Positions 2,287 to 59,160 of a DNA stretch of 64,000 nucleotides are shown here, piece after piece. The notes beneath the pieces are model-generated. The model had not been told where the DNA came from. It saw nothing but the letters and a program-made list of their open reading frames with translations, and did no database searches. Within the stretch, counting starts at the first letter, position 1, and each line of letters opens with the position of its first letter. The stretch is from Mytilus galloprovincialis (lineage: Eukaryota; Mollusca; Bivalvia; Mytilida; Mytilidae), in contig NC_134843.1 of assembly GCF_965363235.1 (NCBI RefSeq), positions 49,843,535 to 49,907,534 of the forward strand, written 5' to 3'. Made by a program: the position numbers and the translations under genes.

Positions 2287-2458
2287 ATGCTAATTTCGAC
2301 AGAAAGTATATGTGACGAAATAATGATGGCAGGAATTCAGCAAATTTTAATTTTGCAAATGATTTTCTTGACGTTTGCAAGTGGGCAACAGTACATGAAT
2401 TGTTGCTGGATAACAGGTGGTTGTAGTCCAAAGCCAAGGTGTGGTACACATTCTTCAG
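2287..2458 (+). CDS. exon 1: signal peptide and short Cys-rich N-terminus
   Basis: The hydrophobic stretch IQQILILQMIFLTFASG directly follows the ATG at 2326, a standard signal-peptide layout. The upstream ATG at 2287 adds 13 polar residues, so 2326 is the likelier start. The mature start is probably near QQYMNCC. The exon ends at CAG followed by gcaagt, a textbook GC donor, in phase 1. A same-phase alternative GT donor (gtacac) lies 15 nt earlier and would drop five residues. Intron 1 is about 8.5 kb and full of repeats. Confidence 0.8.
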
Positions 2459-5400
2459 GCAAGTATATAATTTATCGTTTTTAATTGATGCATAATAGTT
2501 ATCAGATAATATGTATGTACAGAATTTTTAACAAGCAAAAGAACAAAACAAATAAAATGAGCCCTTCTGCTTTCTCGTATGATGTTGTAACCTATAATGA
2601 ATTAAAAAAATGATTTAAACATAATTTAATTAAAAAATAAAAGAAATAAAAGTAAGAGAAACACATCAAAGTTACTGTTTGTAGTAGCACGTAGATTTGT
2701 GTTATTCGAACAAGGCTAACAGTATGAGTTAACAGAACTATATCTTTAGTATCGACATATGTATATGTTAGATAGTGGATATCAATTTTGAGATATGATT
2801 ACATAGCAATAGTATGATTCCCCTGACCAAATATTTCTTACTATTTCTCTCTTTTTACTCTGCAAGCAACGCATTTATTGATGGACAGAAATTATAGCTA
2901 TCTAATTCACTTAATTTCATGACAGTCGCATAGAATTCCATTATATTGACAATATGTAAGCAATATAAACAGACATATAATATGAAATTTACAAAAAAAT
3001 GAAAGTACAGCAGTCAACCATATGTTGCAATTTTAATCACCATCAAACACTTTTAAAATAAAAACAAAAATGACCAAAGTACAATCAAACAATTATAGGA
3101 TGTATAAATAGCCAAAAGTATATCAATTTTATTTTTCTAGTTTGAATGTTTATATACCAGTAATTTTTGGGGACCTGTATATTTTGCTGTTAAGTGAGAA
3201 CCAAGGCTCCGTATTGAAGGCCGTTCTTTGACTTATTATGGTGTACTTTTTACAAAATGTGACATGGATGAAGAATTGTCTCATTCACTCTCATACCACA
3301 TCTACTTATTTATATATACACAGTTTACGTTAAAGATATACAAAGAATAATAGAAATAATGTAATAAAATGTAATTAAGATGATAAAAAACAACAGTATC
3401 TAGAATACATACGTAAAAACCTTCCCAATTTTTGTGAACTTGATACGGAATATTTATCCAAAAGATCCTAGTATCTTCCGATGATTGCTTTAGAAAAAAG
3501 ACGTTGCGTTGGTTGATAAAGTATAATGCTTGTTTTTTTCCTCAGTTATAATGTACTTTCCGCTTTTTTAAAAAAATATATACAGAAATTGATAATTTTT
3601 ACTTTTCTATATCAATATAATTTTAAAAAAAGTTTGCCGTTACACCTTTTATCAGAGAAAAATAAATTGATGAAATGAAACATCATCTACAAATCATAAC
3701 ACACACTGATACACTGATTCAGGCAAACCACATCAGTTAAACAATTCATGTTCTGTTTTATATTTGACACCTATCGGATTGGTTTATCCATTAACAAAAT
3801 TATGGAAAAGGGCATAAAGAAAAGAAATTCGACTTGGAAAAAATGGAAGCTAAAATGATATACATTTACCCTTATCATTGCAGTTTGTATTTCGAACATA
3901 TATATATATTATAGAGTTATAAAGTATATTCCATAAACTATGTTTACCCAAACTACATTAATTAATTTTAGAATGAGGAATAGAAATCATAGATACAAAA
4001 ATTACAATTTAGTACGCCAGACGCGCGTTTTGTCTAAACAAGACTCACCAGTGACGCTCATATCAAAATATTTATAAAGCCAAACAAGTACAAAGTTGAA
4101 GAGCATTGAGGATCTAAAATTCCAAAAAGTTGTGCCAAATACGGCTTAGGTAAATCAAATAGGATTTCACTTTTTCTACATATTAGCACTACTTTATTAA
4201 CATTGGGTATGACGGAAGGAATATGATAAAGCAAAATTTACCAATTAAAAATTACAAGAATACTGTTTAAAATCAGATACTATTTATTCTAAATAAAATA
4301 CACAATAATATTTAATATATCATTCGAAGATAAAACTTCAGTAATATGAAAAAGCCTAATTAGAAAAAAAATCTTAAATTTAACTTTGTTAACGTCTAGA
4401 GCAATTTAAATTGATTTTAGTTAAAATCACTTGTGAGTCTTCCTTGTCGGTAACCTTGATTTTTGTTTAAACTTTTGTGTCTGAAAACAGTGTCAACCGT
4501 CATGACCGTTTATATACTCATTCAGTTTAAATATTTCAGTTGACAGTTCACTTTGGTTATATTTTGATAAAAGAATGAACGCTGTGAGAGGTAACAAAAA
4601 TTATTTGAATGGTCAATAGAATCATTTAATTTGTTTTATACATATCACCGTAGTATGTTTTAGAGTCATAAAATAGAATGATTCTTTTCAAAATCATTAA
4701 ACAAGATTATATTTGTCAATGACGTATCGATCCCTAAAACGTCTCTGATCCTCAAACGAATTCATATAATTTTACTGAACACCAAAACAACACGTTTAGC
4801 GGATGACCAAAACGTGTCCATTGACAAACACCAAATCATGTTCATTTTTTTTGGTAAAAGCAAAATATGTAATTTTTTCTTCAAAAGTGGTTCGTTACCA
4901 CAAATGTACTTTGAAATCAAATCTAGTCCAGATTATTACAGGGACCTTAGACGTAAATAGTTTTCCTAAAGCAAACGATATCGGGAGTGTCTAAATGGTA
5001 ATTATAAAAATGGGTTTTATTAGATTTTAAAGAAGAAAATTCAAAATAATCTTCAAATAAATAAACCGTTTATAAGCTACAGATTAAAACGAATTGGATT
5101 ATTATATGTTGTTTGAAATGTTTAGTGGTATCATATTTGAGTGTCGATGGGAAAATTTACGATCCAAAATTTTTATTCTAACATTGGAAAATATTAATTT
5201 ATTTAAGGGACGACAACTCGGCAGGCCTGGGGTAATGGTAATTTGTAATTGTAATGCATTGTAATATTACATTTTTTGGATGTAATGCAAAGTAATTTGT
5301 AATGCACATTTTCTGCATTACAATTACATGTAATGTAATGATTACTTTAGTTAAAAATTGATGTAATGCCTCCATTACAGTACATTACTTTTCATTACAA

Positions 5401-8400
5401 ATTGGTAAAATACATAAAATTGAAGAATATTGTATAATAAAAATAGAATATTAACAAAAACAAAAGAAAGTATGGAATAACATTTTTGTCATAGTTAATT
5501 ACTGTATTAAATAAATTACATTAATCTTTAAAACACACATTAAGGTAATAAATATAAAATGGTAAAAATTATCAAGTCTTGATTTTGGTTTAAAATGATA
5601 TTAGGAATATTTTGGTGTTTGATGGTTTGGTGTTCAATGAAAAATCTTATAAAAATTTATCAAACAAAACTATATAGATGAATGGAAAAAATATGAAGAT
5701 GAAATTTTCATAATTCTATACACACCTTACATGTATTTCAGTGAAATATTGAATATGTCAAACAACATTTTTACACCAAACTGTGGTTTGGGTCCTGTCT
5801 GTGTTGTTATTTCACCTAATTAATATCAAAATGTTTTTATTGCAATCAAATCTTCTCAACTTATGTTTGTCCTCACAGAGCCCTTAAGCATTTCAAAAGA
5901 TAATCCTTTAATGACACATTTATTGTATTCCTTTGAAATTCCTTAATGATGTCTTAATGATAATTTATTTTTTACCACCACCTAAGAATCTTAAAAGTGA
6001 CTTTTCCACTTTCATGCCTCCTACTACTCCATCAAAGAGTATAGACACAGGTATGGTGCAGTACATGATGTTGACATCTACTTGTCTGAGCCATGTGCAG
6101 AAATTTCAATCAATGCACTGGAATGATGGAAGTCAAATTCAGAGTGCCTTTCTTCTTTGACTATCAAGTATTTAGCCATTTCACACACATCAGCAGCTGT
6201 AGAAAGGCTTTTTAGTATTGCCAGAAAGGTGACAGAACTGATCGCTGTTCTCTTAATGACATCACTTTTAAACCTCTTATGATAATAAAGTTCAATGGAC
6301 ATATTGATTAACCAGTAATTTAAGTCTATATCACTAACACTGTATATATATCTACATAAACCCCTGTAATATTTATCAATTTCTTATAAAAATCTGTTTT
6401 TAGAAATGTTTCTAGTTTTTATATTGAAAAAGTAATGTGTAATGTAATGCATTACACAGGCAAAGTAATTGTAATGTAATGCATTATACAGGCAAAGTAA
6501 TTGTAATGTAATGCATTACATGTGAGAAAAAATGTAATTGTAATTGTAATTGTAATGGAAGAATCACAAAGTAATTGTAATGTAATGCATCACATTGCAA
6601 TGTAATGGCCCCAGGCCTGCTACTCGGTGAAGATTAAATAATCGATTACTCGTTGGATTTACCGAGCGATACTCGAGTACTCGCTCGGTTAAATAAAATA
6701 CAAAATGAAAACACAAAATAATAGGTCGTTGTCTTATGAAAGTAAAACCCTCATTATTATAAATTAGGACAAGATAATAGTCCAAGAAATTTTATACTAT
6801 AATTAATATGTACTAATTATGTAATATGGCTATGATTTAATAAAGTAATTAATTCATATCTATAGAACAGTGATCACTCTAACAACAGTGTTTGAGAAAC
6901 CTCTATAATAACTTTTAATAATCAACAAAAGGGTGCATGATAATTATAATTAACGGATGCCTTTAATCATTTTCTAGGGGTCAACACAGTAAGCAACACA
7001 TTTTTTGTTATTCAAAATCTTATTTTGTCAATTTTTTCTAGAACGAATCGATATGCAACTTTGTTAGTTAATTATCAGTCCTGCTGATGAATATATATGT
7101 TCTGACGATACAGAGACAAGGGCATTACTAATATTAGCTAAAAGTGAAAGCTTTTGAAAAGAGCTCTTGTTCATATATATTCAACATCAGTTTTGAGGAA
7201 ACTAAATGCCAGTAAAACGCAAAAATTGGAATGATATTTTAACTGTAATTAATAATTTCTGGAAGGCGCTCTAAAAAAAAATGTTTTTTGTTTTAGCTTA
7301 AGAAAGCAACAATATTCTAATATGAGACCGATTAGTCGAGTTTCTATTTGTTAACCGATACTTGGTATTACTCGAATACTTAAGTACTCGTTGACATCCC
7401 TTAAATATTTAGTGTTTCTTTTGGATCGTTGTTTTATTTGATGTGTTTCCGTCAGTCTTAGTTGTTAACCCGGATTTTTTTAATTCTGAATCGATATATG
7501 ACTTCCGAACAGCGGTATACTACTATTTATTTCACTGAAAAGAAGTAACAAATATATTGAACTCCAAGGCAAACAAGTAGGCCCAGTAATACCCCCTTTT
7601 GCCCCCAAAATAAAACAGGTTTACACAAATGTTAAAATGTAAAATGTTAGCTATCTATTGGAAAGCAGAATACTTCTGTAACATACATATGACAAGTTCT
7701 TGACAATACAATGCATACGTATCGGGTACTAGCATCATTAAGTCATGCTAAATTACTGAACTCTCCGAAATTTTAGCCTGTAGGTGAATTTTTAGACGGT
7801 TTCCGTCTGAAATGAAAGTGTCCGCCTTTGTGTTCATTCTTAATATTTAAATGTAAGTTAAATTTGATGATAATACATGACATATATAAAAGTTGAGAAT
7901 GAACACGGATGTGGCCACTTTCATGTTTGACATTTTGTGGCATATTTCATATATTTTTCATATTTAAGCTAGAATTTTGATGTCTTTAATGACTAAATAA
8001 GTTAAAATCTTTCATATAAACCAATTGAATCGACTGTGAACACTTAAGAATTTCAAAAATCTCTCAGCAGATGAACTTTAATTTTGAGGCCATAATCGGC
8101 CCTTAACGGACATTCAAAAATGAAATTGAAAGAGTTGGTATTGCGTTGTTTCATAAAAAAATAGGCCAACGTACTTATAAGTATCTGGTCCAAGGGAGGG
8201 ATAAATCCCACTTTGTAAAGAATCACCTTTATTCAGACCAAAAATTCTCTGAAATTGACATTATCAAGATGCTTGATTTCTTGATTGACAACATAATTGT
8301 TTCGTTTAGAGAACGTGTTTTTTTTAACAAAACTATCGGCATACCCATGGGAATTGATTGTGTCCTTCCTCTTGTCGACTTTTCTTTATTTTTTTGAGGC

Positions 8401-11400
8401 CGAGTTAATATAAACACTTCGTAATAATAAAGAAAAGAAGTGAGCAATATCCTTTAACTTTATATACATCCAAGATGATGTTTTCTCACTAAATAATTCT
8501 ATGTTTGGTGACTATGTTGAACTCATCTATCCCATCGAACTAACGGAACTAGCGATGAAGACATTGACCTCTAATGGTTTATAAATTGTGACTTGGAAGG
8601 AGAGTTGTCTCATTAGCACTCATGCATCTTCTTAAATATATATACAATAGTACACAAAACACAGCATGGAAAACTAAAGACTAAGCAACACGAACCCCAT
8701 TGAAAACTGTGGATGATCTCTGGTGCTCCGGAAGGGTACACAGATTCTGCTCCACATGTGACACCCGTCGTGTTTATCATGTTATTACCACACCGGTAAA
8801 TAGTTTAATTTGGTATGTCACATTGTGATAAAGGGGACGTGATTGTGGCTACGACAAAAGGAACATATTATTACTATTATAACACATGGTTGACCGCTGT
8901 TTTTCAAATTTTTTTTACATGTTTACCTATTTTGTCTGTTACTTTTGCCAGCACAATGGAATTCTACTCGAATGTTATACTAGTAATTATTTTTACTAGC
9001 TTTACTACCTGATTTCATCCATCATTTTCTTCATAAGGCAATGCCTGTACAAAGTCAGGAATATGTCAGTTATTTTGCCATTTGATTGATATGTTATGAG
9101 CTTTTGATTTTGTGTTCCTTTGTTACATATTTGTTTGTTCAATAGTGATTAAGATTAAAACACAATATCGACTACTGTTCCAATATTTCTGACAGTTTTA
9201 CCTATTTTGTCTGTTTGCTATGTTTGCACATCGTTGTCAATGGTATGGCATTATATGCAACTGTCAAACAAGTGAGAGGTTTAGCTACATGTAGCTATAA
9301 AATCAGGTTTAATCCACTATGTTCTACATAATAAAATACATGTATTGTAGATGTGTGTATTGGTTATTCCCAAGTACAGAAATGTCGTTATTATTGTATT
9401 AAGAGAGTGTATATAAGTTATCAGAAGTTATTTCTAGTATTTAGTATATTGAATGAGTAATTAACGTACGTTTTACTTTATGTTATTAGCTGTATCGATT
9501 ACGTCATCCAAGGCGCAACTTTGTCATGCATTGATCAGAACGTTACCGATAGGTCAATATTTTAAGCGTGAACCAAAAAGTGTTCAATTGTGAGCTCTTA
9601 ACGAGAGAATTAAGCAGGATCTGCTTACCCTTCCGGAGCACCTGAGATCACCCCTAGTTTTTGGTGGGGTTCGTGTTGTTTATTCTTTAGTTTTCTATGT
9701 TGTGTCGTGTGTACTATTGTTTTTCTGTTTGTCTTTTTTATTTTTAGCCATGGCGTTGTCAGTTTGTTTTAGATTTATGAGTTTGACTGTCCCTTTGGTA
9801 TCTTTCGTCCCTCTTTTAATATGTCTAGATTTGTTTATTCATAAAAGTGTATAATTAAAACATTTTGAGTCGAGGACTCGTATATTTAATGTCAGCGTTT
9901 GACGTTATGTTTTTCTTTCGGTAATTTGAAATAAATACCAGTGCAACGTCACGTTCGTCAGTCATTGCTGTGTTTACATTTGGCTTGCAGCTAGGCTCAT
10001 CCCGGGGTTCCTAGAGGTAAGAAGCAGCGCATTTAGCTGTATGCCTCGCAGTTTATTTTATGAGTAAGGGTCGTAGTTTAGAGGTAAGAAGCAGCGTAGA
10101 TAGCTATATGGCTTGCATTTAATTTATTTATATTGTCATTGAAATATTTAAGATAATCCCAGTTGACCCATACGAAAATACATGAGAAAGAATATTATTT
10201 AAGTATCTTCGCCCCGTATGTAAATTATATATTATTGTTGGAATATTGTACTTGTATGGAAATATATCGGCTGTTCAAGAAATTTAATAAAATCTTCATT
10301 TTTACTATTGATTATTTATCTATTTATTCACGCTACTAATGATGAGAGAACAGACAGCAGAAGTGACGGGGGTATTTACTTATTACCCCGTGTATTTACT
10401 AGTTTTATGAGATATTCGTATTTGCTGGCTTTATACCTATATCAAAACATAGCAAGATGCAGAAATTACGACAGCCTGTATCAAGTCAGGAATATGTCAG
10501 TTTTTATCCATTCGTTTGATGTGTTTGATTTATTTTAGCGTTTCCTTTTGCCATTTGATTAGAGACTTCCCTTTTGGCATTCTCCACGGAGTTCGGTACT
10601 TTTGTCTCTATCTAACTTATCTGTTTCATCGTTTACCTTTAATTTGTACAGACGATGTGATTTGATGCTGACTTTTTTATAAAACATTTGTTATCCATGA
10701 AGGTAGTATGTTGACCTACATGTATTGATGACTTGTTTTTGGTCTATTTGGCTTGAATGCTGTATCCGACACCCCCATATAGGTCTTATCATACTTGTGG
10801 TCACATTATAAAATATCATTTAACTGCATTTACAACACCGATTATATAGACATACATTGAAATTTAATTTACTACTTCTTCTTAACAAAATTAACTTTAA
10901 ACGCTGTACAAAGAATAAACAATAATTTGAAATATGAATGTTTTTCTGTTGTAGTTACGGGGGCTAATTCGATAGTTCTAGACTGGGATAGAATGTATTT
11001 AGTAAATCTAAACGAAACCACAGTAACTAAACTTGTAGTTGGAATACAAAGACGCACACATGACAGTCTCAAAATAGATTATCATCAAACCAAGCCATAT
11101 ATCTATTGGGTAGATTCGTATTATGGTACTATACACAGGTAGGTAAACAATACAAAAACGAATGGGCTTATCAAGGAAAATTTCCGAATAATATTGCATA
11201 TAAAATAGTTAATGTAGTATGAATGCCAATGAGACAACACTTCACAAGCGACCAAATGACACAGAAATTAAAAACGATATGTCATCGTACGGCCTACAAA
11301 AATGATCAAAGCCCATACCGCATTGCTAACTATAAAAGGCCCCGAAATGACAAATGTAAACAAGCCCAATAAGAAAGCTAGACGGTTCAAACATATTACC

Positions 11401-29400: not shown

Positions 29401-32400
29401 ATACACATTAATATTTTATTTAAATCAAATACATTATTAAAGATATAGGTATTTTAACATAACGTTAATATATTAGAGAATATACGTTAATGTTTCTAAT
29501 AATAAAATCGAATTGTCCGAAGAGAACGCCACTGCAAATATATTGATATTCGCAGGCTGAAGAGTCATTGAAGGGTCTTTATGAAGTTATATTAATGTAA
29601 GATTCCATGTGTTAAATAAAATACATTTTATTTTTCATTGGTTACAAATTAATTGTTTTCGTTAAACACGTGTCTAATGCATAGAAATTAATATGGTTTG
29701 ATTATATTGATATCAACATGTGCAAACAATTTATTTTCACGATGTACAAACACATCTCTCTGAGTAAGGTATGAGTATCAATTTCAGTTATATATATACA
29801 TGTTTGACATAATTTAAAAAAAAAAACATTGTTATAGGATCACAGAAGGTATGGTTGAGGAGCAGCTATTTGTTGAAGAACCCGCATTCCTAAAGAAAGA
29901 CAACGATGTTTATGAACAGATTGTAGTTGTTGAAAACATTGAGAGCAATCCCAACTCAAAAACATTTTGCGCATGTGAACAACAAGCTGGCAGTTCCGAC
30001 TCACTAGATGATTTTAACAGCGTACATTGTAATTTGACAGATAGCACTGAGCAATGTTCAGGTTCACCAAGCCCTTCTAGCGCATATGTTCAATACCAAT
30101 CTTGCTTTCAGCCTCTACGGAAAAGACGATCAGTAAATTTTCCTCATAAACTAAGTAAACGAAGTTTAAATAATAATGATGATGAGATTGATTTCAAGCC
30201 ATTAGCGTACAGTGATGACGTCAATGAAACAGAGATTGAGGTAATTTCAATTTCCAGACTGAGTAAGACTTTTTTTTATATCTAAGATAAAACAATGTTA
30301 AAAGAATAACAAATTTATAATAAATTTTGAACAGCAGGTAAAGAAAATTTACCTCTGTATTAATTTGAATGTTTAAAGTGGTACCTGACCCCTTAACTAA
30401 AATCAATTTGGCTCGTTTAATTTTCCTAAAATTTTGACAAAGTATTTACTTTGACCCTTTGACAAAAATATAAAAAAAATCAAAAAAATTGAACCAACCG
30501 TTTAATCAGAAAAAATACACTGGTTATATAGCAGTTTGAAAAACACTTATTTTGATCATTGAGAAGCTTAATATTCCCTTAAGAACACAACGTCATTTAA
30601 ACATTCTGCTGATTTTACAGAGTTATCTCCCTGTAGTGTTAGGTTCCACATTAAAAAAAATGTTTGAAAATGTTCGCATTTATGGCAAGAAAACGCATTT
30701 AGAAACAACATTGCGTGTATGTATACTACATGTACTTTCTTTTACAGTCAACAGCAACCTTTCGAAATGGTTGGACGTCAGACAGAGCATATAACATATG
30801 TTTCAACAGCATAAACGATGCATTGCAGAATGATATGTACAAGGATTATGTTGATGTACCTGTCGAAAAGTTCATCGAGGCGTGTGTTAAGGATATAGAA
30901 GTATGGTTTTTTTTCATTATTGAAAAACGGGGATACGAAAACAAACCAAAACCTTTTCCATTCACAAGGAGAAACTTTTGCACAGAACCAGAATGGATCT
31001 TAAAAATTTAATATAAAATAATATCAGACAATATTTACTCTCACAAACTCTTTAGGTTTTTTTAAAACTTGCGTTTAAAATTTTCCTAATTTGCACAAAA
31101 CATTAATTGGTACATGTAGAAAATTTCATGAAAAGTAGTCGTAAAGATCCAAAGGACAGCAATACAAATTGTTAATACAATGATCTCATTAACATAAAAA
31201 AAGTTCTCCAATTTGATGTATTCATATGAAGATCCAGGCTTACTCTATTATTATTTAAGTTTTTCTTATTTTTGTCGTCTGTTGTTTTGCCATAAATCAG
31301 ATCACTGGAACTTTATTTATATTGTTCCACGTTAATTTTATGTGGAGGCCCCTTAAGTTTACTACATGTATTTATTATGTTCATTATTTAAGGCTATACG
31401 ATGATCTGTAAAGGTTAAAATCTGCTTATTTTTTACTCTGACGGATAAAAGAGGGACGAAAGATACCAAAGGGACAGTCAAATTCATAAATCGAAAATAA
31501 ACTGACAACTCTATGGCTAAAAATGAAAAAGACAAACAGACAAACAATAGTACACATGAAACAACATAGAAAACTAAAGAATAAACAACACGAACCCCAC
31601 CAAAACTAGGGGTGATCTCAGATGCTCTGGAAGGGTAAGCAGATCCTGCTCCACATGTGGCACCCGTCGTGTTGCTTATATGATAACAAATCCGGTAAAT
31701 AGTCTAATTCGGTAGGTCACATTCATGACAGGGAAAGGGATTGTAGTTACGACGTAAGGAACATATCCGATATCATTTGTGAAACAGTAATTCCATAACG
31801 GCCAACAAACTCGTGATGGCGTCCGTAAAATTTACGAAGGGGTGATTTCAACTTCACCATTTGGAACTCTTGGTGTAATAGCTTCCTTGTGAGCAGCAAC
31901 CCTTTATCAAGAAAGTCATGATACGAAATGCAAGCACGGGAATATCGTATCAATTGGGAGATATATACCTCGTATGCAGGTACTGCTGGAATGTTGCTAC
32001 TTAGACATGGAAAGTTCACAATTGGAAAGCTGAAATCATCTCTTTTGTCATAAAGTTTTGTTTTTAACCGACCCTCATTGTCAATTTTTAGATGTAAGTC
32101 AAGATATGAGGCTGACTTAACTGTATCTGTAGTATCCTTTATCTCTAGTTCGATGGGATAGATGCGTTCCACATAGTAACCAAATTTTGAATTATTTAGT
32201 AAAAGAACATTATCTATATATATAGCGGAAAGTAGAGTTAAAGGATATCGCTAACTTCGTAGATTTCTTCCTAAGAAGTTCCTGCATGAAGTCAGCCTCA
32301 TAATAATACAGAAACAAGTCGTCAAGTAGAGGGGCACAATTTGTTCCCATTGGATCGCCGATAAGTATCTATATAATATTATGGATCTTCATCGTGCTTT

Positions 32401-35400
32401 ACCCGAAATTGAATTAATAACTAATTATGTTCAATTGGTTTTTTTCCGTTACATTTTAGAAATACATATTTCAAGCTAATTCATAATGGTACTTGCTGAA
32501 TCATGTATAAGTTAAATATGTTTTAATAATATGGTTATAAGCTCGTTAATGTTGAGGTTATACCCTTAGGTTGCAGGCGACACAACGTTTCTTACAGACA
32601 CAGTAAATGCCATGGTAACGAGCATTATGACAGAGCTTGTGAAAACTGAATCTCTGTATACACAAAAATCTGCCGACGGATCACAGACATTGTTAGAATA
32701 TTTTGCCAGTGGATTATGTCTGAACAACTGCAGTGATAATGGAATTTGTAAAGAAGGTTTGTTCAGAGAATTAAATAAAGCGATTAATTCATAAATGAAA
32801 ATAACAATTATACTTCTTTTCCTCATAAGCTCTGTAAAAAGAAAAATCACAAAAATACTGAACAACGAGGAAAATTCAAACCGGAAAGTCCCTTATCAAA
32901 TTTCAAAATTAAAAGTTCAAACATATCAAACGAATGGAAAACAGCCGTCATATTCCTGACTTTAATTAAAACTGGCTTTATAGCTAGCTCAACATCTTAT
33001 TTGTATGAAAGTCGCAACAAATTTCATTATATTGACAACAATGTGTGAACAAAACAAACAGACATAAAAGAATACAATTTTTCAACTACCACTTGTTCAT
33101 TAAACACTTGAAATAAACAGTGTTGTGTGCTCACAATTGTAGGGGTTTGCATTTGTGACAGTGGATATGTAGGGGAGGATTGCTCTTATAACACTTCGTC
33201 ACCACCGACTGGTATCAGTCTTCCTTTCAATGGTGAATGTAAACTCACAGCTCGTTCATGTGAAGCAATGAATGTATTTGGAGAATTTGTATCAACCTCT
33301 GTATGGTGTAAGCGGAGACATTTTCAGGTATAGTTTTACATATATGTTTTATACCAATCAAAATTTGTGTTAATTTCTTATTCAATGAAGTGATTAAATT
33401 TACAAATCTAAAAAGCAGTTTCCGTCCTCACCTTTCGATATTCGAGTTGAATGCAATTGAAGACAAAGAATCTTCTATATTTTAGAGCTTAACTATTCGT
33501 TTTACGGATCAGTCTTGGTTAATCCCAAAACACATAGACATACATAGCATCATAAAATGTTTCAGGCGTCTGGCGTATCAACTTATAAGCCTGGTACCTT
33601 TGATAGCTAATGCCAAACATTGGATTCTGTTGACAATATTGCATTTGAAATATATTTCATATTTTCAGATTTTAGAAAATGATCTGCTGTACACAACAAG
33701 CAATGAAGTTGTTTCAGTTGAATACAGAAACCCCTTCATGTTAACCCTAGATCTTCCAACGTCTAGGAAGAAAAGATCAGTAGACAGCAACGTTTTGTCA
33801 GAGGGTTACGACATCAGTTTTTCATATGATGGCCAGAATTTTGGGAAGGAAACCAGTATCATCATTTACGATGATCTCAAGTATTCATGTAATACAACGA
33901 CAAAAACGTGCATACCATTGGTATGTAAATGTTCTACTATCCCTGTTTCATTTTGTGTTTCAGTCTTTTCCGGTTTGCTTCATTACGAACTAATAAAGCC
34001 TTGTATTTAAATTTGGTAATATTATAGATAATAATGAATAAAAAGGAACCTAGACTCACCAAAGAACAAACAAAAAGTGAGATCTCTATATTACTAGTAC
34101 TTCATCTATGTATCACCTTCATCTAGACGATGACCAAAATCTTACACAAACGTCATAATTTCAATAAATCAACAATGAATTACTTCAACGAAAAAACTAA
34201 AGAGAAAAAGAAACCATTTAAAAAAAAGTAAAAGAGAGAAACAAAAAACAAACCATTTAGCTATTTATCGGCTGAACAGACAACTTTTACACAAAATGAT
34301 AAAATAACAATACACAATGATTATTTGATTTGAAAGACTTTTCCATGGTATATTGACAACATTAAACCCAACATACCTTAGAATCGTTTTAATTTGCTAT
34401 TTTATTATTATTACCGGCAGCAAAGAAACTTATTCATATTAGTTAGAATATGCTTTCACAAAAAAGTAGGCTTTCAACTTCCTTAGATAAACTGAAATAC
34501 ATTGTCTATACTGGCCATTGAATATTTACTTTCTTAGTTCTAATATTTAACTATTTGTTTTAATATTGTCATACCGGTATTTTAGAGTCTGTAAGATTAT
34601 TCGCTTCTAGATCAATGTTTTATAGCAAATTTGAAAGAATATGATATCGAAAATCTATTTTCAGATTGTGAACGAATCAACAGAAACCAAACAGAGTAAA
34701 TACCTTTTTCCTTCTTTTATTTATATTCTACAGATAATCTTTATCTCTATATCATGTATATATGGCATAGCTTTCTATATATCAACTAATGATACCGTTA
34801 ATAGTTACTTTAAAATTTTAAAATTTACGTGTGTAAGACATATAATTGTGATTAAGCAATGCTTATTACATATTCACATTAAGTAGAAATTAAGAAAAAT
34901 TCTTTGAGAATCGAAGACGGAAAGTCCCAACTCAAATAGTAAAAGTTCAAACACATCAAACGAATGGATAAGATTATCATATTCCTAAGTTGGTACAGAA
35001 ATGTTCCTATATTTTCCTAAACGGAAGGTTATACAGGCAGAAGAAGTGTACTCAGATGCCAATTTGTTTTCGTTCATCTGTGTATAATTTTGATATTACA
35101 AATGCCGTAATTTTTTCCCCAAGTTGATGTTTTTCTGAAATTGTTAAGCATTTCACAGCGGTATAATACTCTTACTTTAAATATTCATCCCTTATTTTTA
35201 TTAACGTTTTATTCACATTGTATCAGATCAATTGTATTCGTTCAGTGTATGTTCATTCGTGGTACCTTGTACTACGTCTTTTGATTAAGGTAAGCAATCC
35301 CAACTTATATTTTATAGTGTGTTTTTTCATGTTGTGATGTTACACTATTGTTTCAGATAAGAGTGAAGGTTAGGTACCATTACAATGTTTAAACCGGCTG

Positions 35401-37478
35401 CAATTGTTTTCATCTGTCCTAAGACAGGAAACTGGTGTTTAGTAGTTGTGGTTTTTTGATATGGTTGATAAGTGTTTCTCGTATTTTTATATAGACTAGA
35501 TTGTTGGTTTTCGCGTTTGAATGGTTTTAAACTAACTTGTAATTGTTATAGCTTGCTGTTCGATGTGAGCCAAGGCTCCGTGTTCCTTGAACAATGATGG
35601 CTTACTTTTATAAATTAGATGGGGAGTTTTCTCATTGGCATTCTAACCACATCTTCCTATATCTAATTATCTACTTCAGATGTTTGATGTATACAACTTA
35701 ATATTACACAAAATATTAATCTCAAAATTAATTAATAGCCTTTCAGTTGTTGATCTATTACTACATGTCAACTCGATTAAAACAAAAAATTTAAATATTT
35801 TCATTAATAAAAGGCAAAAACATTTATGGTGAAATACCTCCCCTGAATTTCCTAGTTCTCGTCAAATTTATTTTGAATGCTCATCTTTTGAAGTGCAAGT
35901 CTGTAATGATATCAATGTTTTACTTATATGTAGTTCATTAATGCTATATGGCTGCTTCATGTATTTTATAGATGTCATTATGATTTTGGTCCCAGTTACA
36001 GTATCAGTGGTTGTTATACTTGTGATAATAGGTGTTATTTACTTTAAGTTGACGACCAAAGCTTCAAAGTAAGTTACAAAATGAATATTTTAGTTGTTAT
36101 CCTCTTATTCCATATTATTGCCAAAGTTGACATTTTAAAACATTTCTTTACATATGATATGTATAAAGAGTGAAGATGTGGTATGATTGCAAAGAAGACA
36201 ATCTTCACAAGAGACAAAATGATATAGCAATTTACAACTATAGGTCTACGTTAAGACCATACCGGATTGTCAGCTATGAAAATCCCAAAAATGAAAAATG
36301 TAAAACAATTCAAACGAAAAAACTATCGCCTGATTTATCTACAAAATAATGAAATAATGAAAGATAAACAAATATGTAACACAGCAACAAACAACAACCA
36401 CTGAAAAACAGACTTTGGACAGACACATAGAGGAGAGAATGTGGCGGGGTTAAATATGTTAGCGTGCGCCAAATCCCCCCTAATCTGGGACAGTGTTGTA
36501 ACTGTACACCATAGGAACCAACCATGAAAATCAATTTAAAAAGCATAACTTACCAAATAGAACAAATTAAAAAACTTATAACAAAAAACACAGAGTTAAA
36601 ATGACATGTATACAATTGTGTATAGATTGTTAAGTTCGGACAGTAAAAGTCATAGAACACATCTTTTTTCCAAAATGCGAGAAACAAAGTTGAGGGGACT
36701 CCTCGACCTAAAATAAAGATCACATGACTCATAAAACATTGCAAATTTTCAAACGAGAAAACATTTTAAATAACGTAAGGCACAACTAACTAATGAAAAA
36801 GCATGCTCGAATATAAAGATAAATTCTATGGTTCCTTATGATAATATTTAGTTAAGAGGTCAAAGTGGAGAGGTTTAGTTACGGTATTGACATGTTGTTC
36901 AAAATTGTTTGTCTTAGTTGCATGCTATGTTTTCAATTGTATTATTTTTAGCACCGCGCATTATTGTAACATTACAGATAAATACACAGGCGAGACACAA
37001 TTTAAGATCATCTGACTTATATCGTATACAAATAGTAAAAGATGGGCGAAAGATACCAGAGGGACAGTCAAACTCATAGATCGAAAATTATATGTTATGC
37101 ATCTTGTTTTTCATTTGTGATATATTTTGGTAAACGGGAGAATATTGAGTTCGAAAAATGTTTTATCGCACGTTATATATGCACACGTTTGATACTTACG
37201 TAATATATAAATTATGCATGAATATCGTTTGTAACGAACACATACATTAAACATTTTGAGCTTCTCAAATGATATTTAACAGGGTGAAGATTGCTTCCTA
37301 TGGAGATGAACCTGATCAGAAGCTCACGTCATCAGACAATTGGAAAGGAAGAGAAAATACTGTTAGCGAACTTGAATTCAGCTTTGAAAAGACCACAGAT
37401 GTGGATGTTTTCGCTGTGCAGTATCCTCCGCGAAAAGAGAATGTCAATGTGTGGAACGGCGGATTTAAGACTTCTTAA
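2287..37478 (+). CDS. YWTD-propeller / D8C / VWD / EGF transmembrane protein (VWDE-like), 22 exons
   Basis: Exons: 2287-2458, 10955-11138, 12600-12827, 14321-14439, 16408-16674, 16875-17087, 17417-17578, 18711-18776, 20361-20638, 21940-22026, 23524-23901, 24894-25043, 26456-26668, 29123-29328, 29838-30240, 30748-30900, 32570-32756, 33143-33327, 33669-33920, 34665-34695, 35972-36068, 37283-37478. The sum is 4227 nt (1408 aa plus stop) and all phases match. Introns are GT-AG except intron 1, which is GC-AG. Residue numbers below use the ATG at 2287; an in-frame ATG at 2326 gives a cleaner signal peptide and 1395 aa. Domain order: signal peptide, YWTD propeller (about 60-323), D8C (about 327-449), VWDE-like linker, VWD (about 733-905), RKRR site (1002-1005), EGF (about 1140-1166), RKKR site (1250-1253), TM (about 1313-1335), cytoplasmic tail of about 73 aa. 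The order from D8C to EGF is that of VWDE; the propeller and TM are additions. The likely role is a cell-surface adhesion or ligand-binding glycoprotein, which is inference. The phase-consistent assembly makes a decayed pseudogene unlikely. Confidence 0.9.
2880..3065 (+). repeat. interspersed repeat family R2, 3' part
   Basis: The stretch with catgacagtcgcat, attatattgaca and acagcagtcaacc is the tail of an interspersed repeat that recurs in this window (8920-9360, 10455-10610, 16070-16330, 32830-33065, 34905-35030, 54480-54725). It lies in intron 1. The class is unknown; I recognise it only as a very common mussel-type repeat. Confidence 0.6.
3165..3315 (-). repeat. short interspersed repeat family R3
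   Basis: On the - strand this reads as the GATGTGGTATGAGTG...GGAGCCTTGG...unit seen again at 15000-15120 (+), 35540-35670 (-) and 42115-42245 (-). The unit is about 130-150 bp and its outer edge is often ATATA-rich. It is probably a SINE or MITE; no A/B box or clear TIR could be supported. Confidence 0.6.
4005..4150 (+). repeat. interspersed repeat family R4
   Basis: It contains gccagacgcgcgttttgtct, gtgacgctcat and tacggcttaggtaa, which I recognise as a frequent mussel interspersed repeat. A diverged end of the same unit, in the other orientation, is at 33555-33610. It is in intron 1 and carries no coding capacity. Confidence 0.55.
5222..6619. mobile_element. hAT element with 8-bp target-site duplication
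   Basis: Terminal inverted repeats CAGGCCTGGGG (left) and CCCCAGGCCTG (right) bound 1398 bp. The flanking octamers are caactcgg (5214-5221) and ctactcgg (6620-6627), an 8-bp duplication with one mismatch, as expected for hAT. The subterminal regions are packed with GTAATGTAATGCATTAC motifs in both orientations. It sits inside the outer element's left end. The interior keeps a fragment of hAT transposase. Confidence 0.8.
5935..6300 (+). pseudogene. decayed hAT transposase C-terminal (dimerisation) fragment
   Basis: The + strand reads TSAAVERLFSIA (about 6185-6225), the hallmark of the hAT C-terminal dimerisation region (family form SAAVERLFSIAGKV). Upstream, MHWNDGSQIQSAF and PPPKNLKSDFSTFMPP fit the segment before it. 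After VERLFSIA a frame change is needed to reach RCSLNDITFKPLMIIKFN. Several stops and shifts interrupt it, and the catalytic N-terminal two thirds are absent, so it cannot supply transposase. Confidence 0.7.
7811..7926. repeat. imperfect inverted repeat (hairpin)
   Basis: A 28-bp arm beginning ATGAAAGTGTCCGCC at 7811 faces a complementary arm ending GGCCACTTTCAT near 7922, with five or so mismatches and a loop of about 60 bp. It may be a small foldback or MITE relic within intron 1. Confidence 0.4.
8090..8580 (+). pseudogene. Penelope-like reverse transcriptase fragment
   Basis: The + strand reads FSEIDIIKMLDFLIDNI...TIGIPMGIDC, matching the RT segment before the catalytic YIDD region in a retroelement family that is very common in mussels. 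A second copy of the next segment lies at 31747-32390 on the - strand. Only a short part of the RT is present and it is broken. Assignment to Penelope-like elements is by general resemblance and is the uncertain part. Confidence 0.6.
8640..8870 (-). repeat. 3'-tail sequence of the Penelope-like family
   Basis: The stretch with cacgaacccc, ctccacatgtgacacccgtcgtg and ggctacgac matches 31590-31765 closely and, in reverse, 9600-9680. In the 31-kb copy this lies just after the RT ORF, so it is the downstream part of the same element family. Here it is in the opposite orientation to the RT fragment at 8.1-8.6 kb. Confidence 0.6.
8920..9360 (-). repeat. two adjacent diverged copies of repeat family R2
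   Basis: Two stretches (about 8920-9130 and 9185-9360) repeat the same landmarks on the - strand: tttgtctgtt, a short AT-rich part, atgcctgtacaaagtcagg in the first and cgttgtcaat, aagtgagaggtttagct in the second. They look like one R2 copy inserted in or duplicated next to another. No coding content. Confidence 0.5.
9600..9823 (+). repeat. 3' tail of the Penelope-like family
   Basis: It contains gcttacccttccggagcacctg, ggtggggttcgtgttg, ttagttttctatgttgtg and the terminal gactgtccctttggtatctttcgtccctc. The same sequence is present inverted at 31440-31700. Shorter copies occur at 13840-14040, 20936-21075, 37032-37090 and 50835-50915. The consistent right end suggests 5'-truncated retroelement copies. 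Confidence 0.6.
10015..10130 (+). repeat. two-copy tandem duplication (about 65 bp)
   Basis: The block tagaggtaagaagcagcg with tagctgtatg/tagctatatg and a gcctcgca/ggcttgca end occurs twice in a row. It has no recognised function and lies in intron 1. Confidence 0.5.
10455..10610 (-). repeat. repeat family R2 copy
   Basis: Contains cctgtatcaagtcaggaata, ccattcgtttgatgtgtttga, gccatttgattagagacttc and ctccacggagttcggtact, the - strand form of family R2, in the distal part of intron 1. Confidence 0.6.
10955..16674 (+). CDS. exons 2-5: LDL-receptor class B (YWTD) beta-propeller
   Basis: Four exons (10955-11138, 12600-12827, 14321-14439, 16408-16674) encode about 265 residues with recurring YWTD-type blades: YIYWVD (residues 106-111), NIYWSD (154-159), WIYFMD (196-201), RIYYT (240-244) and VYYKDN (284-289). 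Several are followed by the usual basic and LDGSN-like stretch (RSELDGSN in exon 3, CSLDGN in exon 4). The size is about right for one six-bladed propeller of the LDLR/LRP/nidogen type, which normally binds ligands or packs against EGF modules. No flanking EGF module is visible on the N-terminal side, which is unusual. Introns join in phases 2, 2 and 1 with clear acceptors. Confidence 0.85.
11210..11450 (+). repeat. interspersed repeat family R1 with an exon-3-derived patch
   Basis: It begins gtatgaatgccaatgagaca and includes gtcatcgtacggcctac and aaggccccgaaatgaca, the R1 unit also seen at 18140-18545, 24012-24240, 36170-36560 and, inverted, at 39628-39690, 43600-43720 and 54885-55060. Unlike the other copies it contains, at 11376-11405, 30 bases identical to exon 3 (12749-12778) of the surrounding gene. 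Confidence 0.65.
13840..14045 (+). repeat. diverged tail of the Penelope-like family
   Basis: Contains gaggagcacctgaaatcacc, tgtggggtctgtattg, cagtctttagttttcgat and gagtttggatgtcctttttg in the same order as 9620-9820, more diverged. The open reading frame over it is an artefact of this repeat. It lies in intron 3. Confidence 0.5.
15000..15122 (+). repeat. short interspersed repeat family R3
   Basis: It runs from agatgtggtatgagtgcc through ctccatccaagtaacaattt and ccttcaacacggaaccttgg to gatcagcaag. It is the + orientation copy of the family at 3165, 35540 and 42115, in intron 4. Confidence 0.6.
16070..16330 (+). repeat. diverged repeat family R2 copy
   Basis: gagtaacaaaaataccgatc, gaggaaaattcaaaacgaaa and aaaatcaagacttcaaacat match the start of R2 as seen at 32830. 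It ends shortly before exon 5. The - strand open frame over it has no family support. Confidence 0.45.
16875..17578 (+). CDS. exons 6-7: D8C (uromodulin/VWDE/OIT3-type) domain
   Basis: Exons 16875-17087 and 17417-17578 encode about 125 residues that begin DPCNIYRS and carry WYRF, MPTSPPG, NCGT, PLWLNG, the run of cysteines AC...VCEQSYNIVIRNC, YYVYHL and YCFG. This is the signature order of the D8C domain found in uromodulin, GP2, OIT3 and at the N-terminus of VWDE, so I am confident in the family. Both outer boundaries and the internal intron are phase 1, so the domain is a symmetrical 1-1 exon cassette sitting directly after the propeller. Confidence 0.9.
18140..18545 (+). repeat. repeat family R1, near full length
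   Basis: Contains gaagatgtgatatgattgcc, gtcaccgtacggccttcaat, caggctcctgacttcggaca and gtggcggggttaaacatgtt, about 400 bp, in intron 7. It is the most complete R1 copy together with 36170-36560, and carries no ORF of note. Confidence 0.65.
18711..23901 (+). CDS. exons 8-11: VWDE-like middle region
   Basis: Exons 18711-18776, 20361-20638, 21940-22026 and 23524-23901 encode about 270 residues between D8C and VWD. Exon 8 is a short Cys-containing linker. Exons 9-10 read as an extracellular beta-sandwich-like region: SLIPIFKCEF, DVYWYICAKH, IKCAIRMRNS, PRFKAGLF. I recognise this arrangement (F/C-x-C, YSVYW-like, CxV/IR, FFAGI-like end) from VWDE proteins. Exon 11 has NEGESINITFTSTVPVGC, then a Cys-rich and aromatic stretch with no domain name I can give. 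Several N-x-S/T sequons fit a secreted glycoprotein. Confidence 0.75.
18883..19821. mobile_element. long-TIR DNA element with repeated GGCAATAAG/TTAGGCATT motifs
   Basis: The ends TATATATGTTAGCGGCAATA (left) and its complement at 19802-19821 are exact. The inverted similarity continues for roughly 110 bp on each side and consists of alternating AGGCAATAA and AGGCATTAAGCTTAA-type blocks. The interior is AT-rich without coding signal, so it is a non-autonomous element of about 0.94 kb in intron 8. A target duplication cannot be separated from the TATATA flanks. Superfamily unknown. Confidence 0.7.
20936..21075 (+). repeat. short tail copy of the Penelope-like family
   Basis: gcttacccttccggagcacc, ttttggtggagttcgtgttg and tttggttttgtgagtctgtg follow the order of 9620-9760. 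Intron 9. Confidence 0.5.
21508..21735 (+). pseudogene. non-LTR (LINE) reverse transcriptase fragment
   Basis: The + strand reads GVPQ and, after a one-base shift, SVLG. About 90 bases later it reads FADDSYLSAITDDDND, the catalytic FADD box of non-LTR retrotransposon RT with its usual downstream acidic linker. It then runs on to KKWTLTINKNNFKVN, matching the W...FNPNKTE-type segment. It resembles the Jockey/CR1-like groups. The fragment is about 75 codons, shifted at least once, and lies in intron 9. Confidence 0.7.
22027..23523. other. intron 10, no recognised element
   Basis: Two overlapping - strand open stretches (about 23046-23290) contain aromatic and charged residues but no motif I can name, and there is no start context or homologous copy elsewhere in the window. 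They may be a relic of a mobile element. The rest is AT-rich with nothing recognised. Confidence 0.4.
24012..24240 (+). repeat. repeat family R1, 5' part
   Basis: agaagatgtggtatgattgc, gagacaactctacacaagag and acaggtcaccgtatgga give a 5' R1 portion, then the sequence departs from the other copies. Intron 11. Confidence 0.6.
24894..29328 (+). CDS. exons 12-14: von Willebrand factor type D domain
   Basis: Exons 24894-25043, 26456-26668 and 29123-29328 give the classic VWD start CQSYNDPHFRTFDGKYYDY (residues 733-751), GEFVMYKN, a middle strand region with paired cysteines (exon 13: SCGSGL, SCLCGIAI, RTCERIS) and the late GLCGVP motif (874-879) followed by FADSWRI. In VWDE-type and apical proteins this last part reads GLCG..., then SWR. 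The domain length of about 170 residues is normal. The intron phases are 0, 0 and then 2 at the exit. VWD domains mediate multimerisation or matrix adhesion; which applies here cannot be told from sequence. Confidence 0.9.
25044..26455. other. intron 12, nothing recognised
   Basis: About 1.4 kb of AT-rich sequence between the two first VWD exons. No repeat family of this window, TIR pair or plausible exon was found. Confidence 0.5.
27400..27800 (+). repeat. tandem duplication of a C-rich unit (about 180 bp)
   Basis: A block with ccccaaatcccga, acccgatcccgacgtccc and gtcctgcctccctctaatct occurs at about 27537-27625 and again at 27708-27795. The intervening bases contain gaaccgggatgcaggcggag/gaatcgggattcaggcagag, itself a small duplication. 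It is strikingly GC-richer than its surroundings. The frame over it is not a gene. Confidence 0.6.
27824..28370 (+). repeat. bivalve-type repeat with (GTTC)/(CCGT) run and internal duplication
   Basis: It begins caacgccccattaatgggca, then a short cgttcgttcgttcgtccgtcc run, gcttcaggttaaaatttttg and tgaagttgaagtccaatcaa, which I know as a common bivalve repeat. It is followed by a unit of about 187 bp present twice (from about 28025 and 28212; shared blocks ttccacatgttttrcttatt and gtagacagaata). It lies in intron 13. Confidence 0.6.
29838..30900 (+). CDS. exons 15-16: acidic/Cys linker with furin-like RKRR site
   Basis: Exons 29838-30240 and 30748-30900 encode about 185 residues after the VWD domain. 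The first half is acidic with paired cysteines (FCACEQQ, VHCNLTD, EQCSGS). Residues 1002-1005 are RKRR followed by SVNF, a good R-x-K/R-R proprotein-convertase consensus, with a weaker SKRS a few residues on. VWDE-like proteins of invertebrates often carry such basic sites in this place. Exon 16 continues with a helical, Cys-containing segment (ICFNSINDALQ, EACVKDIE). Both exons end in phase 0. Confidence 0.8.
31440..32390 (-). pseudogene. Penelope-like retroelement copy, C-terminal RT plus 3' tail
   Basis: On the - strand, reading from 32390 downward, it has DPMGTNCAPLLDDLFLYYYE, then the remains of the YIDD region, RIYPIELEIKDTT, SASYLDLHL, LYDKRDDFSFPIVNFP, YISQLIRYSRAC and KFYGRHHEFVGRYG, followed by the shared tail that ends at gactgtccctttggtat (about 31470). 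This is the RT palm to thumb portion. It is broken, 5'-truncated, and sits in intron 16 opposite to the host gene. Family assignment is by resemblance to abundant mussel copies. Confidence 0.7.
32570..33327 (+). CDS. exons 17-18: EGF-like domain split by an intron
   Basis: Exon 17 (32570-32756) ends and exon 18 (33143-33327) begins inside one EGF module. Together they give six cysteines in perfect EGF spacing: C-x3-C-x5-C-x4-C-x-C-x8-C, ending GYVGEDC (residues about 1140-1166). There is no D-x-D/N-E calcium-binding signature before it, so it is probably a non-calcium EGF. After it comes a Pro/Ser linker and CKLTARSCEAMNVFGEF, a Cys-rich stretch that I associate with the C-terminal part of VWDE-like proteins. 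Splice phase is 1 between the two exons. The acceptor of exon 17 (cccttag) has a second AG seven bases later but only the first keeps the frame from exon 16. Confidence 0.9.
32830..33065 (+). repeat. repeat family R2 copy
   Basis: gaacaacgaggaaaattcaa, ggaaagtcccttatcaaatt, caaacgaatggaaaacagcc and gtgaacaaaacaaacagaca follow the R2 order. Intron 17. Good match to 54480-54725. Confidence 0.65.
33669..33920 (+). CDS. exon 19: membrane-proximal segment with RKKR site
   Basis: This 84-residue, phase 0-0 exon carries SRKKRSVDS (RKKR at residues 1250-1253), a second proprotein-convertase consensus about 60 residues before the membrane helix. It then has YDISFSYDGQNFG and a CNTTTKTC pair. If cut, the ectodomain would be released or held only by disulfides or non-covalent contacts. 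The cysteine pair after the site seems to form a local loop, so it does not obviously tether the ectodomain. Confidence 0.85.
34665..37478 (+). CDS. exons 20-22: stalk, transmembrane helix and cytoplasmic tail
   Basis: Exon 20 (34665-34695) is only 31 nt; it is supported by acceptor ttttcag, donor gtaaat and exact phase match on both sides. Exon 21 (35972-36068) encodes a hydrophobic run, VIMILVPVTVSVVVILVIIG and VIYF, followed by basic KLTTK, giving a single type I membrane helix. Exon 22 (37283-37478) gives the last 65 residues: a charged tail with several Ser/Thr and a YPPR segment, ending GGFKTS and TAA. No kinase, ITIM or PDZ-ligand motif is evident. Reading through exon 20 without splicing gives a short alternative end in the following intron. 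Confidence 0.85.
34905..35030 (+). repeat. repeat family R2, 5' part
   Basis: gacggaaagtcccaactcaa, cacatcaaacgaatggataa and atattcctaagttggtacag give the 5' half of R2, in intron 20. Confidence 0.6.
35540..35672 (-). repeat. short interspersed repeat family R3
   Basis: ttcgatgtgagccaaggctc, cgtgttccttgaacaatgat and ctcattggcattctaaccac match the - strand form of R3 (compare 42115-42245). Intron 20. Confidence 0.6.
36170..36560 (+). repeat. repeat family R1, near full length
   Basis: gaagatgtggtatgattgca, gaatgtggcggggttaaata and tctgggacagtgttgtaact. It is similar in extent to 18140-18545 and lies in the last intron. The - strand open stretches here are by-products. Confidence 0.65.
37032..37092 (-). 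repeat. terminal fragment of the Penelope-like tail
   Basis: gatgggcgaaagataccaga, gggacagtcaaactcataga equals the very end of the tail in reverse orientation (compare 31446-31500). Only about 60 bp are present, just upstream of the last exon. Confidence 0.55.
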
Positions 37479-53387: not shown

Positions 53388-54065
53388 CCCCCGCTTTGAA
53401 AAAAGGGGGGTATACTGTTTTACCTCTGTCTGTCCTTCCGTCAGTCCGTCAGTCCATCGGTCCATCAGTCCGTCAGTCCGTCAGTCTGTCAGTCAGTCCG
53501 TCCGACCCATGAATATTTTTCGTCACATTTTTCTCAGGAACTACACTACCAGGATTTCTGAAATTTGGTTTCAGGCTTGATATAAGTCAGCTATACTGTG
53601 TGATTCGTTTTCAGATTCATCACTCGACAACTTCCTGTTTACCGAACACTTGTGTTATTTTACACATGATAACCAAGTTGAAAATTTTTGTCACATTTTT
53701 CTCAGGAACTACAATACAAGGACTTCTGAAATTTGGTTTCAGGGTTTATATAAGTCTGCAATACTGTGTGATGCGTTTTCAGATTCATCACTCGACAACT
53801 TCCTGTTTACCGAACACTTGTATGATTTTACATATGATAGCCAAGTTGAAATTTTCGTCACATTTTTCTCAGGCATTACTATACAAGGATTTCTGAAATT
53901 TGGTTTCAGGATTTATACAAGTCAGCTATACCGTGTAATGCCTTTTCAAATTCATCACTCAACAACTTCCTGTTTACCGAAGACTTGTATATTTTTACAC
54001 TATTAAAATTATCCACTTGCGGCGGGGGTATCATCAATGAGCAGTAGCTCGCAGTTTCACTTGTT
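53388..54065 (+). repeat. bivalve ATACCCCCGC repeat with minisatellite and three-copy tandem unit
   Basis: It starts atacccccgctttgaaaaaa, followed by (tccgtcag)-type repeats (53440-53510). Then come three units of about 172 bp (from about 53517, 53689 and 53862), each with gtcacatttttctcagg, aggatttctgaaatttggtt and aacttcctgtttaccgaa. It ends cggcgggggtatcatc. I know this start and end from bivalve genomes. The two overlapping frames through the units reflect the tandem structure and are not genes. Confidence 0.75.
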
Positions 54066-58668: not shown

Positions 58669-59160
58669 ATACAATGAAGAAGTGACAGTGGATAATTATG
58701 AGAGAAATATATAAAAATAAAAGAGAAGCGTATACATTATTACAGAAATCAAGTATGTGATAAAGAAGGTAATTTGTTGATCAATAGAACATTATTTAAC
58801 CTTTTTATGAGGTTATCTCTCACATAGTAATAGGATGAACATTTTAAAAGAATGTGTAGTTCATCTGCAGGTGGCAGTTAGGTCCGCTGCTGTATGCCCT
58901 GAGGTAATCGGTGCCCTGAGGTAATCGTGGTAATGCGCCATTGATTAAATACGCACGAAAATATAGTTCTTATTTAGATAGATCTTAATACCAAATTTTA
59001 ATGTGACCAAATACCAAAGATGTCAACAAACTTCCCAAATGATTTTATTATTGTATTCACCGATCATTTATTTCGTATGTACGTGTAGGGTGGGGATGGC
59101 TGGTAAAATTATAAACTTTTTTTTTTATAAAAGTTCAATTAATGATCTGAAGTATTCATT
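58669..59160. other. spacer before the satellite, with a two-copy CCTGAGGTAATCG motif
   Basis: No gene. tgccctgaggtaatcg occurs twice in tandem at about 58896-58928, and its CCTGAGGTAA core is shared with the satellite palindrome that begins 240 bp further on. The rest is AT-rich. Confidence 0.5.

Follow-up and report, generated by a model that had tools for sequence, protein, structure and literature searches.

The window analysed here, a 64,000-nucleotide stretch of Mytilus galloprovincialis DNA (C6:49843535-49907534), carries on its plus strand a multi-exon gene spanning positions 2323-37478. Our best model comprises 21 exons with 4,104 nt of coding sequence, stop included, and encodes 1,367 aa in the order signal peptide, Cys-rich N-terminus, YWTD propeller, D8C, VWD, one EGF, stalk, transmembrane helix, and a 72-aa tail. 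It was built from open frames and splice sites with phases fixed and boundaries mended by paralogues; all 20 introns are phase-compatible (19 GT-AG, one GC-AG), and neither a stop nor a frameshift interrupts the 21-exon reading. An earlier note on this DNA had claimed a signal peptide, YWTD propeller, D8C, VWD, EGF, and transmembrane helix in one phase-consistent model; phase consistency and every one of these elements stand, with 21 exons and 1,367 aa replacing its 22 exons and 1395-1408 aa. Position 2287, which it gave as the start, is an in-frame upstream Met, and Met 2323 was chosen instead.

Exon structure of the gene

Exon 1 (2323-2458; this and all following exons lie on the plus strand) encodes the signal peptide and a Cys-rich start (NCCWITGGCSPKPRC), with a CCWxxGGC segment after the signal peptide. 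It is followed by an apparent GC-AG intron (2459-10954) with a strong donor motif, AG/GCAAGT. Ending exon 1 at 2462 and starting exon 2 from 10914 also fits the phase but was rejected for its weak acceptor, unlike those of the paralogues. Because a genome search with exon 1 matched the window alone and returned no other copy, this exon is the least supported part of the model. A similar Cys-rich signal-peptide first exon (SCCWRHGGC...; L023:217-) was found by eye in the paralogue P5 (C6:41.31 Mb), where the equivalent codon has an ordinary GTAAGC donor and splicing to exon 2 keeps the phase. No exon 1 was detected in the paralogue P4, a signal-peptide-like frame just 5' of exon 2 in the paralogue P3 was discarded for want of a good donor by eye, and a scripted search for a signal-peptide exon found none in the copies at C1:115.1 Mb (propeller-less), C1:50.4 Mb, and C5:41.4 Mb.

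The propeller is spread over exons 2-5: exon 2 (10955-11138; YWVD) encodes blades 1-2 and has an acceptor region that aligns in paralogues, exon 3 (12600-12827; YWSD) is backed by paralogues and contains a Pfam Ldl_recept_b match, and exons 4 (14321-14439; YFMD) and 5 (16408-16674; last blades, ending in a phase-1 GTAAGT donor) are placed by the model and paralogues. Exons 6 (16875-17087) and 7 (17417-17578) encode the first and second halves of D8C, both supported by Pfam and paralogues, and are followed by exon 8 (18711-18776; VKCPHEMSSETEHYPGC; model and paralogues), whose end was revised to a GTAAGT donor at 18776; an end at 18814 was rejected for a phase clash. The middle region between D8C and VWD, without Pfam match, comprises exon 9 (20361-20638; model and paralogues) and exon 10 (23524-23901; model and P4).

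VWD begins in exon 11 (24894-25043; DPHFRTFDGKYYDYMGVGEF), continues through exon 12 (26456-26668), and ends in exon 13 (29123-29328), all three placed by Pfam and P4. A linker follows in exon 14 (29838-30240), which contains a furin site, RKRR, and exon 15 (30748-30900), whose matched part shares 96% identity with P4 (both from the model and P4). Exon 16 (32570-32756) combines linker and EGF start, and exon 17 (33143-33327) EGF end and a Cys-containing stretch, again on the strength of Pfam and P4. The membrane-proximal region with a further furin site, RKKR, lies in exon 18 (33669-33920; model and paralogues), and a short stalk in exon 19 (34665-34695), placed by DNA alignment to P4; the exon 18 end and this form of exon 19 are both kept in two paralogues. 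Reading exon 19 as 34596-34695 clashes in phase with the transmembrane exon and breaks the frame in P2, and was dropped. Exon 20 (35972-36068; MILVPVTVSVVVILVIIGVIYF) encodes the transmembrane helix, recognised from hydropathy, P2, and P4, and exon 21 (37283-37478; paralogues) encodes the bulk of the 72-aa cytoplasmic tail together with the stop.

Domains, membrane anchor, and processing of the predicted protein

A domain search of the product had been proposed in the earlier note; run with Pfam on an initial draft of 1,309 aa that lacked the transmembrane helix and tail, it placed VWD, D8C, and EGF each over the cut-off. VWD (PF00094) scored 48.7 bits (cut-off 22.9) at residues 707-852 of the draft, after D8C_UMOD (PF23283; 37.0 bits, cut-off 27), and the EGF after VWD scored 26.0 bits as EGF_Teneurin (cut-off 24.3) in the draft and 23.9 as EGF_2 (cut-off 22.1) in the C-terminal piece. 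Because Ldl_recept_b remained under its cut-off of 21 in the full-length draft (16.5 bits; 24.8 in the isolated head), the propeller call depends chiefly on similarity to LRP propellers at the profile level. A profile was built from six heads, five of which match Ldl_recept_b at E up to 0.1, and it matched LRP6 chains with whole-chain E values of 9e-40 and 2e-37, each summed over three stretches, the best of which cover positions 14-244 and 8-263 of 264. The window propeller itself matches LRP2, LRP4, LRP6, and LDLR. From this profile match and the spacing of its YWTD-like motifs (residues 96, 144, 186, 230, and 273), the predicted propeller is read as six-bladed.

The transmembrane helix occupies residues 1274-1295, and the Kyte-Doolittle mean over 19 residues peaks there at 3.29. 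In the window gene and in four of the five C6 paralogues (P2, P3, P4, and P6), the gene body is followed by a tail exon. The window gene also has a transmembrane exon, as do P2 and P4, which are the two paralogues whose tail DNA was examined. Such recurrence behind the same gene body makes it unlikely that the transmembrane exons are not joined to the rest, an outcome that the earlier note had named as refuting its model. No tail exon was found for P5 or for any copy off C6, and the 3.2 kb behind exon 18 at C5:41.4 Mb contain no spliceable transmembrane exon, only one hydrophobic stretch without splice sites. The predicted membrane anchor is well supported for the C6 group only. Taken with the conserved junctions described below, the recurrence of tail and transmembrane exons also supports the combination of VWDE-like body, LRP-type head, and membrane anchor first suggested in that note, and we consider it highly probable that the locus is one gene encoding a single-pass cell-surface VWDE-like protein (D8C-middle region-VWD-EGF) with an N-terminal LRP-type YWTD propeller.

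Two furin-type sites are present in both full models (window and P4), which suggests processing or shedding of the predicted protein. One, RKKR, occurs in the window, P4, and P2, in the window 61 residues before the helix; the other, shared by the window and P4, lies after VWD and reads RKRR or RRRR. Vertebrate VWDE is secreted, has several EGF repeats, and has no transmembrane helix, and both this and the furin-type sites would suit a mainly secreted or shed product, its ectodomain freed by furin at RKKR or its transmembrane exon alternatively used, that acts as a soluble humoral factor as is thought for vertebrate VWDE. However, the transmembrane and tail exons are kept, with the frame open and splice sites intact, and the tail ends in a conserved C-terminal motif, PPRKEN-VWNGG, that would be needless in a purely secreted protein. 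We therefore regard a mainly soluble product as possible but doubtful, and a membrane protein as the preferred reading.

The D8C domain is homologous to those of uromodulin (UMOD; 7.8e-12) and GP2 (1.6e-10), with which it has a WLNGT sequon in common. A figure legend of PMC8930769 places VWDE among the D10C proteins, and the same paper identifies UMOD N275 as the decoy glycan site. The window protein could be an antibacterial decoy offering high-mannose glycan to bacterial adhesins, as the D10C module of uromodulin and GP2 does, and PMC9679248 names nine VWDE-annotated genes whose expression changes in oysters carrying Marteilia. This idea is weakened because the N275 position aligns with His in the window protein, such that the FimH-binding glycan site of uromodulin is absent; GP2 uses another glycan site, N65, and other positions can thus serve (PMC8930769). 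The window protein also has no Pfam match to a ZP module, and it differs from uromodulin and GP2 in having a transmembrane helix in place of a GPI anchor. A decoy function of this kind appears improbable to us, and a propeller-headed membrane protein remains the favoured account.

The propeller-D8C unit across the genome

The intron between exons 5 and 6, which joins propeller to D8C, is in phase 1 in all five close paralogues (P2-P6). Exons 2-7 and 9 are present in P2, P3, P5, and P6, and their phases agree; exon 8 was not found in the gapped P5 sequence examined. This comparison imposed the reading frame and used the closest AG or GT in frame; boundary shifts were 0 apart from an in-frame shift of 6 nt for exon 2 of P2, P3, P4, and P6 and a 6-nt shift for the second of the two exons 6 in P6. 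In a deep paralogue at C1:50.42 Mb, the propeller is LRP-like (Ldl_recept_b, 46.9 bits) and the propeller-to-D8C junction, read by eye, is again in phase 1.

P6 (C6:55417838-55412254, minus strand; loci L049, L047, and L066) contains the D8C exon set 6-7-8 twice in tandem and in phase, and may encode a protein with two D8C domains. Further YWTD-repeat exons lie near the C1:50.42 Mb gene, at C1:49942849-49944826 and C1:50559740-50563799, with no match from the examined D8C set within 40 kb downstream. Elsewhere in the genome, the mussel adhesive decapeptide AKPSYPPTYK matches a long repeat on C4 at up to 100%, in keeping with a Mytilus mussel as the most likely source.

Among 61 D8C first-half exons, 12 have a propeller match at most 25 kb upstream on the same strand. 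These represent 11 genes on C1, C5, and C6, P6 having two D8C units. None of the 61 has a propeller match downstream on either the same or the opposite strand; one C1 exon has a match 16.6 kb upstream on the opposite strand, and one C4 D8C match has a propeller match 38.9 kb upstream. The 61 exons are those of 62 matches covering the D8C first half, one partial C8 match being left out, and their total is a lower bound, since 150 of 287 candidates were scored. The propeller set comprised 39 matches and a further 6 of 150 from another search, near D8C genes or members of the first set; the first set alone, for the chromosomes concerned, again gives 12. Distant heads may be missed, the query being the window's own head. 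By this count, the window gene is one of at least 11 genes in the genome with predicted propeller-D8C linkage and not a single oddity. Because related genes contain the same fusion, it looks like a member of a real duplicated family, not a misread gene.

These observations bear on whether two adjacent genes, one for a secreted propeller protein and one for a D8C-VWD-EGF protein, were duplicated together and wrongly joined in our model. An in-frame stop does occur shortly past the exon 5 donor, where an unspliced message would end, but the phase-1 GT-AG junction is kept in P2-P6 and in the deep paralogue on another chromosome, the linkage in the 11 genes is polar, and the frame of exon 6 offers neither a start nor a separate signal peptide. 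A false join is very improbable, and transcripts in which exons 1-5 form a separate mRNA, as the earlier note had envisaged as a refutation, are unlikely given the conserved junction.

Other D8C genes (e.g., C1:115 Mb, C4:39 Mb, and C7:52.6 Mb) have D8C in two exons and exon 9, all open, with no propeller match within 40 kb upstream; the 8.6 kb upstream of the C1:115.1 Mb copy, read directly, contain only two short exon-2-like matches (E ~0.07). In a tree of the 21 genes with exons 6, 7, and 9 assembled, other D8C genes being left out, the propeller label changes three times (range 2-4 on bootstrapping, with a single change in none of the 200 bootstrap trees). Shuffled labels averaged 7.2 changes, and 1 of 500 shuffles was as low as the observed three. 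All 11 propeller genes and five without fall into one group of 16 (support 93/87, not starred). Under midpoint rooting, this is compatible with a propeller gained once and twice lost or overlooked, bearing in mind that a propeller not seen is not the same as one absent.

The closest view of constraint comes from P4, whose exons 2-21 lie at C6:50054931-50082134, ~200 kb downstream when measured from exon 2 to exon 2. A usable tblastn match was available for 19 exons, and the splice sites stand exactly at the predicted place for 18 of 18 donors and for 18 of 19 acceptors, the 6-nt-shifted exon 2 acceptor being the exception; exon 19 was placed by DNA alignment. The P4 frame is open from exon 2 to the stop (1,329 aa) and is 71% identical to the window protein over 1,313 aligned codons. 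By the Nei-Gojobori method, with segment borders off by up to ~20 codons, dN/dS is 0.18 for the propeller, 0.15 for D8C, 0.19 for exons 9-10, 0.11 for VWD, 0.17 for the linker, 0.22 for EGF and stalk, and 0.35 for the transmembrane helix and tail. This range of 0.11-0.35 across seven segments shows, at the level of sequence comparison, purifying selection on the window gene. A decaying pseudogene, to which the search-wise single-copy exon 1 and its GC-AG donor might point, is scarcely credible against a 21-exon reading free of stops and frameshifts and dN/dS <0.4 in all seven segments.

Synonymous divergence between the window gene and P4 drops along the gene, from 1.94 (propeller) to 0.33 (transmembrane helix and tail), a pattern that gene conversion homogenising the 3' half, or an exchange of the 5' half, could produce.

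Possible function and relation to known proteins

The window gene resembles VWDE in having D10C/D8C, VWD, and EGF in the same order, and differs from it in its N-terminal YWTD propeller, its transmembrane helix and tail, and the single EGF found. With the LRP/LDLR family (LRP2, LRP4, LRP6, and LDLR) it shares a YWTD propeller on a single-pass membrane protein; it differs in having D8C and VWD, with no EGF match beside the propeller. In the 1,309-aa draft, Pfam at E up to 1 matched no LDL-A repeat, and no NPxY motif occurs in the window or P4 protein, which argues against LRP-style endocytosis via that motif. Because it has neither LDL-A repeats nor NPxY, the gene is probably not an LRP; most simply, a VWDE-like lineage would have taken up an LRP-type propeller once and then multiplied.

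We infer from this architecture a ligand-binding receptor. As a type I membrane protein, it would present the propeller as its outermost head, binding a protein or glycan ligand, with propeller and D8C together forming the binding end and the D8C-VWD-EGF part serving as a disulphide-rich stalk for further contacts. Furin cleavage at RKRR, after VWD, and at RKKR could yield a multi-chain receptor or release the ectodomain, and the tail may signal or anchor through its C-terminal PPRKEN-VWNGG motif and not through endocytosis of the LRP NPxY type. That the copies stand in tandem and are diverging suggests a repertoire for recognition or adhesion. More tentatively, and with rather little confidence, the fused genes could form a mussel or bivalve repertoire of diversified surface receptors, in which heads diverge between tandem copies, the membrane-proximal half is homogenised, and furin gives membrane and soluble forms.

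No description of the YWTD-D8C-VWD order was found in the literature, including the available parts of PMC8930769, PMC9117669, PMC9679248, PMC12207488, PMC8174845, and PMC7737619; the novelty of the architecture is provisional because the literature search did not extend to animal protein databases. VWDE variants appear in Mytilus, by annotation alone, in the accessible parts of PMC12207488 and PMC8174845. Propeller-headed VWDE-like membrane proteins would be a class masked by the standard labels "VWDE-like" or "LRP-like", and some of the VWDE-annotated genes that appear in studies of bivalve infection or environment may encode surface proteins with a propeller head; the meaning of those studies could therefore shift, and ligand searches would become possible.

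Several other features lie in the window, in which Rfam at gathering scores gave 0 matches. A 167-aa open frame on the minus strand inside intron 15 (31747-32250), without Pfam match at E up to 0.1, looks like a retroelement fragment. Positions 53517-54000 hold ~2.9 copies of a 168-bp repeat that is open in two frames, and a long array of ~194-bp (387-bp) units with strong strand skew occupies 59149-64000 and runs off the window end.
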